DNA from: Rickettsiales bacterium
Lineage (GTDB): Bacteria; Pseudomonadota; Alphaproteobacteria; Rickettsiales; UBA1997
Assembly (NCBI GenBank): GCA_016778745.1
Contig: JADHOZ010000004.1
Coordinates: forward strand, 1 to 36,396
Length of the DNA stretch: 36,396 nt
Direction: 5' to 3'
Below are positions 8,423-36,145 of this stretch, in pieces. Within the stretch, counting starts at the first letter, position 1; every line of letters starts with the position of its first letter. The notes under the pieces were generated by a model, which saw only the letters and a program-made list of their open reading frames with translations, was not told where the DNA came from and ran no database searches. The translations under genes and the position numbers were made by a program.

Positions 8423-9127
8423 TTAAAGTAATCTCACAGAGATGATGCGTGTTACTTTGTCTGGGTCGTTGAGGTGAGGGGCGTGGCCGCAGTTGGGGAA
8501 TTGTTCTAGGGTAAAGTCTTTGATTCTTGCTTGGAAATATTGGGTTTGGTTGGGGTGGACTATCATGTCACCGCTTCCTTGGCAGAAGATTGTTGTGGGG
8601 AAGTCGGTAAAATCTACGTTGAAGCAGGTGAAATTTTTTAGTTCTTCTAGCCAGAATTTTAGGTTTTCTTGGTTTTTATCATTTATGTCTAGGGTTTTGG
8701 TGATTTCTTTGGCGTGTTTGTCATTCATGGCCGTTAGGATGGAAAATTGTTTTAGGGTTTTGGTGGGGGAGGTGGAGAAACTTTGATAGAATTCTTCGTA
8801 GGTTTTTTTTGACATTGCGGTGCTGATTTTTTTGTCTTTTACCATTTGGAAGGGTGGCGCGATTAGGATTAGGGTTTTTGGAGTGATTATTTTCTTTTCG
8901 ATTAGTCGGATCGCTAGTTGGCCCCCCAAACTCCAGCCGATTACCATTTTTGGATTTAGGTTTTGGAATTTTATTTCTTTGAAGAAGTCTTGCGTGTTGT
9001 TGAATTTGGTGTAGTCGAAGTGGATGATTGGGTTTTGGGCAAAAAAAGAGGGGTCAAAATTTTGATTTCTAAAAATTACTTTTAGAGAATCAAATTTTTG
9101 ACCCCATCCCGATAGAGTTAGTATCAT
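8423..9127 (-). CDS. bioH: Alpha/beta hydrolase, BioH-like (pimeloyl-ACP methyl ester esterase family)
   Basis: Nucleophile elbow GWSLGGQLA, late 'GCGHAPHL..DP' (read as NCGHAPHLNDP), N-terminal SGWG oxyanion region. Confidence 0.7.
   Translation of the reverse strand: MILTLSGWGQKFDSLKVIFRNQNFDPSFFAQNPIIHFDYTKFNNTQDFFKEIKFQNLNPKMVIGWSLGGQLAIRLIEKKIITPKTLILIAPPFQMVKDKKISTAMSKKTYEEFYQSFSTSPTKTLKQFSILTAMNDKHAKEITKTLDINDKNQENLKFWLEELKNFTCFNVDFTDFPTTIFCQGSGDMIVHPNQTQYFQARIKDFTLEQFPNCGHAPHLNDPDKVTRIISVRLL
9050..9105. repeat. 56-bp near-perfect palindrome inside bioH
   Basis: GGGGTCAAAATTTTGATTTCTAAAA-ATTAC-TTTTAGAGAATCAAATTTTTGACCCC: ~25-nt arms with one mismatch and one small indel, ~5-nt loop. 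Confidence 0.9.
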
Positions 9128-9397
9128 CTAGTTTGCTTTCTTTGCGGCAAATTTAAAATCACCAAATTTATTTTTAAATTTAGTAAGTCTTTCGTCGTTA
9201 GCATTAACGAAGTTTTGTGCTTTTTCTTGCCATGCTGGGTGGTTTTTTGGATCTACGTCCAAAGTTAAAGTATCACCTTCTTTACCCCAGGTGGTAAGGA
9301 TTTCTATTTTTGAACCATCTGTCAATACAACATTAACTTTATGTTGTTGTGGGTCTACTCCAGAGATAGCACTTTTAGTAGTAGCTGGTTGTGACAT
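9128..9397 (-). CDS. rpmE: 50S ribosomal protein L31 (cysteine-free, alphaproteobacterial type)
   Basis: 'LDVDPKNHPAWQEKAQNFVNANDERLTKFKNKFGDFKF' matches the L31 C-terminal pattern; ATG at 9397 gives MSQPATTKSAISGVDPQQHKV (the track ORF is extended upstream). Confidence 0.75.
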   Translation of the reverse strand: MSQPATTKSAISGVDPQQHKVNVVLTDGSKIEILTTWGKEGDTLTLDVDPKNHPAWQEKAQNFVNANDERLTKFKNKFGDFKFAAKKAN

Positions 9398-9579
9398 TTC
9401 GATAAATAATATTATTAATAAATTGGGGCGCAAACTATAATTGTTTCTTTCTATTTAGTCAATATCTTTGTGATGTGGTAAATTTTTTAAGTTTTTTGCA
9501 TAAAGGTCTTGACACAAATGTAAAAAATTCAAGAATCTGACCCAGCATATTTTTTATAAAAAATTTTCAGTTTGTACCA

Positions 9580-10794
9580 ATGTACTCCTTTGCGAAGCAA
9601 GTAAAATTAATATCCTACCCTTTCTTATTGTTGCGAAAGGCTACTGCATTTGTGGTGTTGGGTGTTTACGATTTTTTGAAAAAAGAAAGAAAGTTATTAT
9701 TGGTTACTTCTAGCGGTATAAAAACTTTTAATCTGGGATTTTTTATCCAGCTTACTGCTTCGATCTTTGTTATTTTTGTTGGCTTGTGGTTTGTAAAGTC
9801 TTTTAATTACGGTATCTACATGGCAAAAAAAGATAGTGAGATGAATAAGCTAAAAGCTGCAAACAAGTATTTTGACGGAGAAGTTAGGGGGGTTAATACT
9901 AAGTTACAGAAAATTAGTGAATATTTATTATCCATAACTGATGAAGACAAAGGTACAGTGATTCCAGATCATAATTTTAATGCGCCTGAAAACTTTACAG
10001 AAGATGATTTGAGTAAATTAGATCAAGGCATTTTTAATGAAATCAAAACGGCCACCAGTCAAATATCTAGGATTCAACATATTGCTTCGCAGAGAATAGA
10101 AAAAATAGAATCTGCTATTAGGCAGGCTGGTTTAGGGCGCAGGATAGCTGGTGAAATAGAAGGTGCTAAATTTGATTTTGAATCAGAATTGGTTGATAAA
10201 GTTAGTGCTAAAGTTAGTGCTAAAGTTAGTGCTAAAGGGGGTCCGTTATTGGATGAAGAAATTGCCGAAGATGATTTGATCTCCAATGGTAATTTAGAGG
10301 ATCATTTGAGCGATGTTAAGTTTAGTGGTGATTTTGATTACTTAATGACTTTGGAAAAGTTGGTTGAGATTATTCCTTTTGCTAAGCCTATGAAAAATTA
10401 TTATATATCAAGTGGTTTTGGAACTAGAGTTGATCCAATAACGAATAGAAAGGCTAGGCATAGAGGTTTAGATTTTGTTGGACCAAGTAAAGAAGAAGTC
10501 TATAGTCCGTCCGAAGGGAAGGTAATTCTGGCTGGTAGATTTAATGATTATGGCAAGGCCGTAGTGATTGATCATGGTTATGGGATTACAACTCGTTACG
10601 GTCATTTGTCTGCAGTTAATGTTAAGAAAGGAGATATAGTCAAAAGAGGTCAGCTGATTGCTTTGCAAGGTAATACAGGTCGAAGCACTGGTTCTCACTT
10701 GCATTATGAAGTTAGATATAAGAAATCTCCGCTAAATCCTTACAATTTTATACAGGCCGGAGAGTTGTTGTATAAAAAAGATAATAAGAGTTAA
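9580..10794 (+). CDS. M23 family metallopeptidase with N-terminal TM and coiled-coil region
   Basis: C-terminal M23 motifs HRGLDF..., VVIDHGYGITTRYGHLS, GSHLHYEVR; single N-terminal TM; in-frame VSAK repeats. Confidence 0.93.
   Translation: MYSFAKQVKLISYPFLLLRKATAFVVLGVYDFLKKERKLLLVTSSGIKTFNLGFFIQLTASIFVIFVGLWFVKSFNYGIYMAKKDSEMNKLKAANKYFDGEVRGVNTKLQKISEYLLSITDEDKGTVIPDHNFNAPENFTEDDLSKLDQGIFNEIKTATSQISRIQHIASQRIEKIESAIRQAGLGRRIAGEIEGAKFDFESELVDKVSAKVSAKVSAKGGPLLDEEIAEDDLISNGNLEDHLSDVKFSGDFDYLMTLEKLVEIIPFAKPMKNYYISSGFGTRVDPITNRKARHRGLDFVGPSKEEVYSPSEGKVILAGRFNDYGKAVVIDHGYGITTRYGHLSAVNVKKGDIVKRGQLIALQGNTGRSTGSHLHYEVRYKKSPLNPYNFIQAGELLYKKDNKS
10201..10236 (+). repeat. 12-bp tandem repeat x3 in the M23 peptidase gene
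   Basis: (GTTAGTGCTAAA)x3, exact, in frame, encoding VSAKVSAKVSAK. Confidence 0.97.
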
Positions 10795-13576: not shown

Positions 13577-14119
13577 TTATTTATTTACTTGATTGAAAAC
13601 TCTTGTGGTACAAACAAAGTCATGGACGGTCAGTTTCTCTTTGCCAAACATTACGCTAAAGATATTTAGAATTGTTGGTGTAATCAGAATTATTCCTAAC
13701 TTTGCTGCTTCTAGTCCCATAAGAGCTAGTTCTTGATTTTTTAATAGAGAGATTCCCATAAAAAATAACAATATTACCAAATATTTCAGTAATATTCTGG
13801 CGAATGCTACAAATCTTGATATTGCTACACCATTTTCTTTATGACCAATGAAGGTGCGCAGGGTTTTCTTTCCGGGAGTTGTTTGCCAAGGCGATGAAAT
13901 AAATAGTATTTCGGCCATTATTGTGAACAAGACGGGAATGATAAATATACATAATAAGAATATTATGTCAAAGAACGTCATGTTCTGGGAATTGTTAATG
14001 TTTGGATAAAATAAACTGTGAGATATTTTTAGGATTGCGTAAAATAGAAAAGAAAAAAAGATGCCATCTATTATGAAGGCTAAGATTCTGCGCCAGAAGG
14101 ATGCATATGTATTTGTCAT
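13577..14119 (-). CDS. RDD family membrane protein
   Basis: 'FWRRILAFIIDGIFFSF' and 'KEKLTVHDFVCTTRVF'. The track start (14125) is TTG; ATG at 14119 gives a 4-bp ATGA overlap with the nadE stop. Confidence 0.85.
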   Translation of the reverse strand: MTNTYASFWRRILAFIIDGIFFSFLFYAILKISHSLFYPNINNSQNMTFFDIIFLLCIFIIPVLFTIMAEILFISSPWQTTPGKKTLRTFIGHKENGVAISRFVAFARILLKYLVILLFFMGISLLKNQELALMGLEAAKLGIILITPTILNIFSVMFGKEKLTVHDFVCTTRVFNQVNK

Positions 14120-15777
14120 TGGCAATGTCTATTCGTAATTGGATATCTTCTTTCAACTCCAAAGGCCATTTTTGATATTTTAGGACCGATGGGCGCTTGA
14201 TTTCTTTTATATTCTGAATGGTAGAAAAGTTTTGCAACTTTTTTTACCTCATTTTCATTAAAGCCGAGTGCGATTATGTCATTTATAGATTTTTGTTCTT
14301 CGATGATTAATTTTAGGATTTGATCTAATATTTCATATTCGGGCAATGAGTCGGAATCTTTTTGATTTAGTGATAGTTCAGCGCTTGGTTCTTTGGTAAT
14401 GATATTATTGGGAATTAGATTTTTATTCTTAAGTAATGCAATTGATGGAATGTTATTATTTCGCCATTTTGCTAAATGAAAAATTTCGGTTTTGTAGATA
14501 TCTTTTATTGGGTTAAATGCGCCACACATATCACCGTAAATTGTAGCATAGCCAACTGCTAATTCTGACTTATTTCCAGTGGAAAGTAGAAGTGCTCCGG
14601 TTGTATTTGAAAGTGACATTAAAATATTACCACGAATTCTTGATTGTAGATTTTGTTTCGCTATTTCATTGATTGCGGGTAGAGTCCGTAGCATTTGTTG
14701 GAAGAGATCTTCAATATCTATTATTTCTAAATGTAGCTTTAGGTTTTTTGCACAGGCTTTTGCGTCATCGATTGATGACTGGGCGTTAAATTGTGTAGGT
14801 AGGGCGTATATTGTGACATTTTTAGGGCTTAAAGCATCAACTGCTATTGTTGCGGCAATAGCGGAATCAATGCCGCCAGACATTCCAAGGATTACTTTTT
14901 TAAAGCCATTTTTTTGGATGTAGTCTCTTAAGCCCAAGATACAAGCTGAATATGTTTTTTCATCATTATCTAAAATATCTTCTTCTTTTTCGTTGGAGGT
15001 AATGTTTATTTTTTGCCCTTTTTTTGTGATTTCGATTATTTTTTGATCCTCTTTAAATGATTTTAGAGTTAATATCTCTTTGCCTTTTGCATTCAGAGCG
15101 AAAGATGATCCATCAAAAACTAATTCATCTTGTCCGCCGATTGCATTACAATATAATAGTGGTTTATTAGTATTTTTGACAAAATTTTTGGCGGTTTTTA
15201 ACCTTTCTTCTTGTTTATTTTGGTGAAAAGGCGAGGCGTTTATTGAGACTGAAAAATCAAATATTTGTTGACTTGCAAGTGTGGCGTTGAAGTTATTCCA
15301 CATATCTTCGCACACCAGGATGTTTAAGGTAAATCCTTTTAAGGTCGGGTAAGAGAGATATTTTGATTCGCTAAAATATCTTTTTTCATCAAATACTTCG
15401 CTATTTGGGAGTGTTTTTTTATTGGCAATGTTTCGAATCTCGCCATTTTCAATTAGAATTGCAGAGTTGTAGAGTTTTTTTTGGTTTTTACTGTTAACAG
15501 ATATTGTTGGAGCGCCAAGCAAGATTGCGCAATTTTTTCCTACAGTTTGTTGGCAAATTTTAAGAATGTTTTCTTTGATCTCTTCTAAGAAATATTCTTT
15601 CAGAAGCAGATCTTTGCAGTCGTAACCGCAAATTGCCATCTCTGGAAAAATAACTAAATCACAAATTTGAACACTATGTTCAAATTTGTGATATTTGGAA
15701 ATTATTTTTTGAAAATTACCTTCAATATCACCAACAATTGAGTTAATTTGACAAATTGCTACTGTTAATTTTTTCAT
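14116..15777 (-). CDS. nadE: NAD+ synthase, glutamine-hydrolysing (nitrilase domain + NadE)
   Basis: Nitrilase-like FPEMAICGYDCKDLL, LVCEDMW; synthetase P-loop LGMSGGIDSAIAATIAVDAL. Confidence 0.95.
   Translation of the reverse strand: MKKLTVAICQINSIVGDIEGNFQKIISKYHKFEHSVQICDLVIFPEMAICGYDCKDLLLKEYFLEEIKENILKICQQTVGKNCAILLGAPTISVNSKNQKKLYNSAILIENGEIRNIANKKTLPNSEVFDEKRYFSESKYLSYPTLKGFTLNILVCEDMWNNFNATLASQQIFDFSVSINASPFHQNKQEERLKTAKNFVKNTNKPLLYCNAIGGQDELVFDGSSFALNAKGKEILTLKSFKEDQKIIEITKKGQKINITSNEKEEDILDNDEKTYSACILGLRDYIQKNGFKKVILGMSGGIDSAIAATIAVDALSPKNVTIYALPTQFNAQSSIDDAKACAKNLKLHLEIIDIEDLFQQMLRTLPAINEIAKQNLQSRIRGNILMSLSNTTGALLLSTGNKSELAVGYATIYGDMCGAFNPIKDIYKTEIFHLAKWRNNNIPSIALLKNKNLIPNNIITKEPSAELSLNQKDSDSLPEYEILDQILKLIIEEQKSINDIIALGFNENEVKKVAKLFYHSEYKRNQAPIGPKISKMAFGVERRYPITNRHCQ
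15658..15692. repeat. 35-bp perfect hairpin inside nadE
   Basis: ATCACAAATTTGAACA-CTA-TGTTCAAATTTGTGAT: 16-bp perfect arms, 3-nt loop. Confidence 0.95.
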
Positions 15778-21863: not shown

Positions 21864-23165
21864 TTATAACAACATCAAAACTGGTTGCTCTATGTATTTT
21901 CGAAGAGATTTGAGAAATTCAGCTCCGACAGCGCCATCAACTGATCTGTGATCTGAGGATAGTGTCACATTCATTAAGTTAGATATTGTGATTTGATCAT
22001 TATCACCGACTACCGGTTTTTTAACTGCTCGAGATACCGCTAGAATGCAGCTTTGCGGAGGATTAACGATAGCGCTAAAATTATCGATTCCAAACATTCC
22101 TAGGTTAGAGATACTAAATGACCCGCCTTGAAATTCTTCTGGTTGCAACTTATTCTCACGCGCTTTTTTTGCTAATTCTTTTGTTTCAACAGATATGGTT
22201 TTAAGATCTTTTTGGTCAGCATTTTTTACAATTGGGGTAATGAGTCCACCATCTATTGCTACAGCCATTGAAATATCTATATTGTTGTAAACGATAATTT
22301 CTTCTTCGCTCCAAGACGAATTCGCTAGAGGCACTTCTTTAAGGGATAGGGCGCAAGCTTTGATGATTAGATCATTTACTGATATCTTGTAGGCTGGCTT
22401 TTTATTCTCATCTACTGGCGCAACAGAATTGATTGTTGCTCTAATTTCTAAAAGTCTATCAATGTTGAATTCGCAAGATAGATAGAAGTGTGGTGTGTTT
22501 TGTTTAGACTCAAGTAATCTACGTGCAATAACTTTTCTGATATTGCTATTTTTAACGGCGTAATGTTCTTGGGGATTTCTTCTAACTACACCAGATGCGG
22601 ATCCAGGATTTCTTAGAAAATCAATAATATCGTCTTTGATAATTCTTCCATGAGGACCGCTGCCAGTTACTTGATAAAGGCTGACATTTTCTTCTTTAGC
22701 AATTCTTTTGGCTAAAGGACTGGCTTTAATTTTATTATTAAATGATCCGGTGGATCCAGATTTGGTGGTCATAGGGGCGGTTGGTGTTGCTGGGATTTCT
22801 TTGGTCTTAGCTTCTTGGGTGTTTTTCTTGTCGGAGCTATTTTCTGTTTTGTCAGTTTTTTCTGCTGTGGTTTCCTTTGGGGTCGAAGTAGATTTATAGT
22901 CTTTCAGCGCGGATTTATCTTCTCCATCTTCGAGAAGTAGAGCGATAACCGAGTTCACCCCTACATTTTCTGATCCTTCGCTCACTAATATTTTACCTAA
23001 CGTTCCTTCGTCAACGGCTTCAACTTCCATTGTCGCTTTATCTGTTTCGATTTCAGCAATAACGTCACCAGCTTCTACTTTGTCGCCTTCTTTTTTAATC
23101 CATTTTGCAAGATTACCTTCTGTCATGGTTGGTGATAGTGCTGGCATTGTAATTTCTATAGGCAT
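21864..23165 (-). CDS. pdhC: Pyruvate dehydrogenase E2, dihydrolipoamide acetyltransferase (one lipoyl domain)
   Basis: [28 protein letters not shown], lipoyl [12 protein letters not shown]3-binding [14 protein letters not shown], catalytic [16 protein letters not shown]. Confidence 0.95.
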
Positions 23166-23197
23166 ATTGACTTAATAAATTGTTAAAGTTTATTTAT

Positions 23198-23361
23198 TTT
23201 ATACCAAGCCTCGTCTTTAATCACTTTTTTATCGCTTTTATTTTTAGTCTAAAATTATAAAAAAACCTTTATATATCATGATACACGCAGATTTTCTTGA
23301 TAATTTGATCCTCAAAAATATTTTGTTTAAAAAGGCAATTAAAGACGAGGCTTGGTATAAA
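23198..23361. repeat. 164-bp interval bounded by perfect 24-bp inverted repeats (MITE-like)
   Basis: Left arm 23198-23221 TTTATACCAAGCCTCGTCTTTAAT; right arm 23338-23361 ATTAAAGACGAGGCTTGGTATAAA (exact reverse complement); TTAT on both outer flanks (23194-23197, 23362-23365). Confidence 0.85.
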
Positions 23362-23393
23362 TTATTTTAATTTAGTTTGGTAGAAAATTACAA

Positions 23394-24404
23394 CTATTCT
23401 TTTCTACTGTCAAAGCTGTCTCTCAATGCTTCTCCGATAAATACTAATAAAGTTAATAATAACGTGATGGTAAGAAAGCTGGCAATACCTAGCCATGGGG
23501 CATTGATGTTGTTTTTTCCTTGCGATAGTAATTCTCCAAGAGAGGGAGAACCTATTGGCAGTCCTAATCCCAAGAAATCTAAAGAGGTGAGGGTGGTTAT
23601 TGATCCCGCTAGTATGAATGGTAAGTTAGCTATTATTATAGGTGAGGCGTTAGGTAATATATGTTTAAAAATAATACGTGAGTTTTTTGCGCCGAGTGAT
23701 TTGCTTGCTTTCACAAAGTCAAAATTTCGTAGTCTTAGAAACTCTGCTCTGACGTAAGAGACGATTGATATCCAGCTAAAAGCAAGCATTAGCAATAATA
23801 ACGTGAAAAATCCGGGCGTGATTATAGTTGATAAAATGATGAGTAAAAACAAGATAGGCATACTTGACCATATTTCTATAAATCTTTGTAGAATTAGGTC
23901 GCACAATCCACCAAAATAGCCTTGAATTGCGCCAAGGGAAACACCAATCACCATGCTAAAAAAAGCGAGGGTGATACCAAAAATTAGCGATATTCTGATG
24001 CCATATAATATTCTAGCTAAAACATCACGACCATTATCATCTGTTCCCAGTAAGTTTGTTAACGTTGGTTTTGAGGGGGCGGGAGAGGGTAGATTGAAGT
24101 TAATGGTGTTGTAAGAAAATTGTATCAGAGGAAAAATAATAAATCCGTTTTTTGTTATCTTTTCTTGAACGAAAGGGTCTTGGTAGTCTGTATGTGTTTT
24201 TAGGTGTCCTCCAAAAGTTGTTTCTGGAACATTGTTTATAAAAGGAAAGAAGATTTGGTTGTCGTATTTAACCAATAAAGGTTCGTTGTTAGCTATTATT
24301 TCTGAGAATAGGGTGAGGAAAAATATTGTGATTAACGTTATAAAAGAGTAGTAGCCTCTTTTATTCTTTTTGAACTTTTTTATGAAATTTGCATCGAATG
24401 TCAT
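23394..24404 (-). CDS. ABC transporter permease, YejE-like (oligopeptide/microcin C type)
   Basis: LLGTDDNGRDVLARILYGIRISLIFG, EFLRLRNFDFVKASKSLGAKNSRIIFKHILPN, LDFLGLGLPIGSPSLGELL. Confidence 0.9.
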   Translation of the reverse strand: MTFDANFIKKFKKNKRGYYSFITLITIFFLTLFSEIIANNEPLLVKYDNQIFFPFINNVPETTFGGHLKTHTDYQDPFVQEKITKNGFIIFPLIQFSYNTINFNLPSPAPSKPTLTNLLGTDDNGRDVLARILYGIRISLIFGITLAFFSMVIGVSLGAIQGYFGGLCDLILQRFIEIWSSMPILFLLIILSTIITPGFFTLLLLMLAFSWISIVSYVRAEFLRLRNFDFVKASKSLGAKNSRIIFKHILPNASPIIIANLPFILAGSITTLTSLDFLGLGLPIGSPSLGELLSQGKNNINAPWLGIASFLTITLLLTLLVFIGEALRDSFDSRKE

Positions 24405-36081: not shown

Positions 36082-36145
36082 ATAACCAACTAAATCTCAA
36101 CTCTAATCACCTAAATTATCAGAGTTGAGATTTGAGCTTTTTCAA

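Follow-up and report, generated by a model that had tools for sequence, protein, structure and literature searches.

The analysed DNA is a stretch of 36,396 nucleotides from a Rickettsiales bacterium (hereafter the window), in which the gene for ribosomal protein L31 and a gene for a BioH-like alpha/beta hydrolase follow each other on the same, minus strand, the stop codon of rpmE (9130-9128) abutting the ATG of the hydrolase gene. The features of this junction are:

9434-9462, minus strand: TTGACT-17-TATAGT upstream of rpmE, promoter-like by consensus only
9128-9397, minus strand: rpmE, ribosomal protein L31 (Pfam PF01197, E 1.7e-11; NCBIfam NF001809, 71.7 bits for a cut-off of 70)
8423-9127, minus strand: coding sequence of the BioH-like alpha/beta hydrolase, 234 aa (Pfam matches above cut-off), with the hairpin in codons 8-26
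9080-9105, minus strand: hairpin 5' arm, encoding GQKFDSLK, which is conserved and lies close to the predicted oxyanion hole (covariance-model match G000:C70:9038-9106, minus strand)
9075-9079, minus strand: hairpin loop
9050-9074, minus strand: hairpin 3' arm, encoding (I)FRNQNFDP, with GACCCC as its final letters
9041-9049, minus strand: U-tract TCTTTTTTT, adjoining the end of the stem and read as the Ser-Phe-Phe codons TCT TTT TTT

The hydrolase has orthologues at 42-63% identity. It scores 46 bits against the BioH model TIGR01738, for a cut-off of 207, so that the label bioH given in a first-pass annotation holds for a BioH-like alpha/beta hydrolase and not for BioH proper; we keep bioH as a short name for the gene. 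By its 16S sequence, about 82% identical to Rhizobiales records, the organism is a deep alphaproteobacterium. A literature search for rpmE linked with bioH returned no relevant paper.

The inverted repeat at 9050-9105 has arms of 25 bp around a loop of 5 nt. In its 18-nt core, 94% of the positions are complementary; the full stem of about 25 bp is bulged, with a single mismatch and an indel of 1 nt between the arms. Read on the coding (minus) strand, the sequence is GGGGTCAAAAATTTGATTCTCTAAAAGTAATTTTTAGAAATCAAAATTTTGACCCC, and TCTTTTTTTGCC comes immediately after it. The first-pass annotation had noticed a near-perfect palindrome here, which was borne out by the inverted repeat, the fold and the recoding described below, and the peptide that it encodes was as claimed; the T-tract after the 3' arm and the abutting rpmE had both gone unmentioned. 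The RNA of 9030-9130 is predicted to fold with -31.3 kcal/mol (z = -4.15), a stability matched by 0 of 200 dinucleotide shuffles. Synonymous recoding that left the protein unchanged reached the -28.4 kcal/mol of the site in 0 of 2000 trials with the codon frequencies of the gene itself (z = -5.2) and in 1 of 2000 with a wider usage table (z = -3.7). In 16 of the 19 relatives bearing the hairpin, 0-2 of 300 such trials were as stable as the observed sequence, with z values from -1.9 to -5.9 across the hairpin genomes. A palindrome produced by protein constraint or chance codon use could draw on the left-arm peptide GQKFDSL, which is conserved on account of the protein, but it is refuted by these recoding trials and we give it practically no weight. 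Within a 248-kb sample, about 20% of the 1.22-Mb genome, the site is by a wide margin the strongest hairpin followed by a T-tract in the sense of a coding sequence, the next one having -19.8 kcal/mol. A simple consensus terminator scan did not list it, the bulged 25-bp stem falling outside a rule of short loop and limited stem, and an Rfam search returned no family above the gathering threshold, the sub-threshold matches being mostly to hairpins of the miRNA type.

The palindromic elements of Rickettsia are likewise in-frame palindromes in coding sequence; they are longer and recur within the genome. The first-pass annotation had proposed such an in-frame insertion (RPE). For an insertion of the RPE or REP type speaks that the palindrome lies in frame within a gene and that the genome is alphaproteobacterial, small and A+T-rich; in another genome (G070), moreover, GGGGTCAGA...TCTGACCCC-like ends are common to two places. 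At first an insertion was favoured for the window, G013 and G022 being without five of the residues, and was dropped after the rest of genus g12 had been aligned. These two genomes, the nearest relatives in the first comparison, form the hairpin too, with a shorter loop. In the ortholog alignment, residues 9-26 are no insertion and the peptides of the relatives are equally long: residues 20-26 (RNQNFDP) have counterparts of equal length in many of them (RESNFDP, RDSSFDP, NESNFDP, SELNFDP, KESFFDP), and in a family search of 61 genomes the g12 peptides at the same place read IFRESNFDP, IFRDSSFDP, IFNESNFDP, IFSELNFDP and IFKESFFDP. BLASTN of the palindrome against the 1.22-Mb genome found one copy, which is no dispersed element, and the position is orthologous across genera. 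The aligned sequences refute a recent insertion; a palindrome that is not inserted, not repeated and common to several genera leaves the RPE or REP reading with virtually no probability.

Twenty genomes have the hairpin at this position: that of the window, in genus g1, a single one of g11, and 18 out of 19 examined in g12. In most of them it starts at the GGGG of the Trp-Gly codons, and in all 20 the best match of a covariance model lies at the rpmE-bioH locus, the one place with strong matches; the three extra matches that were read (G001:C6; G070:C100 and C163) resemble terminators or palindromic repeats. The element at the two G070 places (L100, L101) is palindromic, with the GGGGTCAGA...TCTGACCCC-like ends and identical upstream sequence, and looks like a repeated terminator or a REP-like unit.

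Covariation was followed in an ungapped alignment of ten long forms, in which 88.8% of the cells are paired, against at most 69.2% with the partner slid. Cells in which both bases changed and the pair was kept number 15, for a mean of 5.8 after shuffling (0 of 500 shuffles as high, relatedness being ignored by these controls) and at most 5 in the slid-partner controls. The clearest link joins two codons: in codon 15 (Leu) the first base, at which the change is silent, pairs with the middle base of codon 20, CTN going with Arg or Ser (xGN) and TTN with Lys or Asn (AAN), in 10 of 10 sequences. On the bioH gene tree, which is poorly resolved and too weak for counting gains and losses, each of the two codons changed at least three times; the independent-pairs test of this link had too few pairs and was underpowered. 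The pattern argues that the hairpin has been kept folding by compensatory codon changes, even where the protein changes, and the constraint on the RNA appears strong enough that silent changes in the left arm accompany amino-acid changes encoded by the right arm.

The T-tract is as constant as the stem. Directly 3' of the stem, at least six of eight bases are T in 20 of 20 hairpin genomes (19 relatives and the window), and the tract occurs in two registers, an outer one in which GACCC is followed by T and an inner one in which GAGTC is followed by T7. In six genomes the outer base of the stem is altered and the inner stem GACTCGYTGG...CAGCGAGTC abuts TTTTTTT, while G070 and G072 hold both versions nested. 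Predicted energies are -20 to -42 kcal/mol for the long forms and -15 to -20 kcal/mol for the inner stems. The Phe-Phe codons of the tract are TTT in 40 of 40 cases over the 20 genomes, while the remainder of these genes has TTT for 257 of 375 (Fisher p about 1e-6, relatedness uncorrected); outside the tract the window's own gene uses 6 TTT and 15 TTC. As in an intrinsic terminator, the base of the window's stem consists of G+C pairs (GGGGTC/GACCCC), the T-tract follows immediately on the transcribed strand and a gene read in the same direction lies just upstream. The window has no A-rich run before the left arm, which makes the signal one-directional.

This upstream gene is the same throughout, rpmE ending at most 62 nt before the host gene on the same strand in 20 of 20 hairpin genomes. 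Two close relatives are without hairpin and T-tract. In G080, where the T-tract at the bioH site is absent, bioH stands behind another gene; rpmE is at a different place, ahead of trpS, and its stop codon is followed by a textbook terminator (GGCGCCTC TTTCAAC GAGGCGCC ATTTTTATT). In G011 a gap of 122 nt separates rpmE from bioH and contains a terminator-like hairpin, CGATTTTATTG...CAATAAAATCG, then a T-rich run. The association of the hairpin with rpmE adjacency (20/20 versus 0/2) gives p about 0.004, with relatedness uncorrected and two informative losses only. A hairpin with a T-tract also follows shortly after rpmE in many of the family members without the rpmE-bioH pair (L068, L071, L075, L076, L078, L080, L082 and L083), and elsewhere in the window's genome intrinsic-type terminators lie 8-39 nt past stop codons. 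Genera g13, g4 and g9 also have rpmE next to bioH, but no terminator is evident in them, and termination is accordingly not compulsory there. Finally, genus g14 (L023, L062) has a separate hairpin, AAAAAACTTACTATA...TATAGTAAGTTTTTT, at about codons 29-43 of bioH (recoding z = -5.5 and -6.0), which is possibly an rpmE terminator embedded independently; this pair of related sequences suggests that embedding may have arisen more than once.

Together, these observations make it highly probable that the palindrome is the intrinsic (Rho-independent) terminator of rpmE, carried in frame by the downstream gene. In this family intrinsic terminators often stand at the end of rpmE. Here its stop codon abuts the start of bioH and leaves no intergenic room, so that hairpin and U-tract would have come to lie inside the next gene, in codons 8-29. 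The main competitor is an mRNA structure that would not terminate transcription but affect the translation of bioH, processing by RNase or protection of the rpmE 3' end. The first-pass annotation had also considered an mRNA hairpin near the 5' end that affects translation: its functional hairpin stands, while the T-tract and the link with rpmE favour termination over an action on translation. A hairpin that begins 23 nt into the coding sequence is just ahead of an initiating ribosome, and covariation suits any selected RNA structure. Such an element nevertheless leaves unexplained why the T-tract is kept in all hairpin genomes and shifts with the register of the stem, why its codons are biased to TTT and why intergenic hairpins occur where rpmE is not adjacent, and we judge it unlikely.

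A mutational origin was weighed as well, in which template switching, recurring at a quasi-palindrome, makes the arms alike without selection for structure. The arm differences in the window, one 1-nt indel and one mismatch, are such as these events leave, and the palindrome in the nadE-like coding sequence at 15658-15692 is not common to relatives. Template switching, however, predicts neither the T-tract nor the link with rpmE adjacency, and G080 lost the hairpin along with its rpmE neighbour, whereas relatives of the same genus kept it; this origin seems very improbable to us.

If the site is an rpmE terminator, RNA polymerase moving past rpmE would transcribe the stem and pause on the U-tract, about 87 nt beyond the rpmE stop codon. 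Most transcripts would be released there, leaving abundant rpmE (L31) mRNA and little hydrolase mRNA. The left arm begins 23 nt into the coding sequence and stop and start codons abut, a geometry in which a ribosome starting bioH early could cover or melt the left arm and allow read-through. Termination would thus probably be relieved by ribosomes translating bioH; we infer this relief, like termination and its efficiency, from the arrangement of the sequence. Going further, the site might be a translation-responsive attenuator, in which ribosomes that reinitiate from rpmE to bioH set how much transcription goes onward, and embedding might be a recurring, protein-shaping strategy in this compact family. 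We put this forward tentatively, as a possibility that we consider rather doubtful; if it were true, the output of the BioH-like enzyme would be tied to translation capacity.

The site shares with the canonical intrinsic terminators surveyed by TERMITe (PMC12207403) a G+C stem base beside a U-tract, on the strand of the upstream gene, and its end about 87 nt past the rpmE stop falls among the species medians of 37-91 nt past the stop codon given there. It differs in lying wholly inside the coding sequence of the next gene and in a stem that is longer and more A+U-rich than in a textbook terminator; its U-tract begins with UCU. Intrinsic terminators inside coding sequence are known from rsxC and narY of E. 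coli and, together with the pyrL attenuator, are masked by coupled ribosomes (PMC5021804). There too, hairpin and U-tract are read as codons and a translating ribosome is expected to block the hairpin, but rsxC and narY have theirs within the gene, downstream of a polyproline pause, and pyrL in a leader peptide, while the window's site stands at a gene junction, would serve the gene before it and has been maintained across genera through compensatory change. E. coli has other transcript ends within ORFs, some of which score high as intrinsic terminators (aceK int, 5.9); the passages considered here do not present such ends as a maintained terminator of an upstream gene, unlike our reading of the window (PMC7815308). 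In other operons, stoichiometry depends on partial termination behind a strongly expressed first gene: internal terminators there lower the downstream genes relative to r-proteins (archaeal ioTTS, PMC10450193) or to binding proteins (clostridial ABC importers, PMC9045158). Both of these kinds are intergenic, unlike the window's site. The archaeal ioTTS are not known to use a hairpin terminator of the bacterial type.

Because terminators internal to coding sequence were already known, the unusual part here is the long-term upkeep of one at the rpmE-bioH junction by covariation, with visible effects on the protein. One stretch of DNA would stand under two codes, as a terminator for one gene and as protein for the next. 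In compact genomes, terminator searches confined to intergenic DNA will overlook sites of this kind, and the N-terminal loops of these proteins may be misread as adaptive. The junction also offers a test of competition between ribosome and terminator.

Several other hairpins and palindromes were seen. At the mdh-ftsI junction of this genome, another candidate for an embedded terminator looked plausible by eye: at 9863-9920 of another contig (L094, G000:C44), the hairpin GCCAACC...GGTTGGC, then TTTTTTGC, occupies codons 1-20 of the ftsI/PBP gene, 12 nt past the mdh stop. It was rejected, with a recoding z of -1.7 (64 of 1000 trials) and relatives, which have larger gaps, without the hairpin. 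In the window, a perfect 16-bp palindrome at 15658-15692, in the N-terminal part of the nadE-like gene (14116-15777, minus strand), has a recoding z of -2.5 and is unconserved in relatives. A 46-nt inverted repeat at 23186-23373, 83% complementary and with arms 96 nt apart, lies between a dihydrolipoamide acyltransferase-like gene (21864-23165) and an ORF at 23394-24404. Finally, a 16-bp inverted repeat at 36092-36133 (AAATCTCAACTCTAAT / ATCAGAGTTGAGATTT, then GAGCTTTTTC), outside any long ORF, is possibly an ordinary intergenic terminator.
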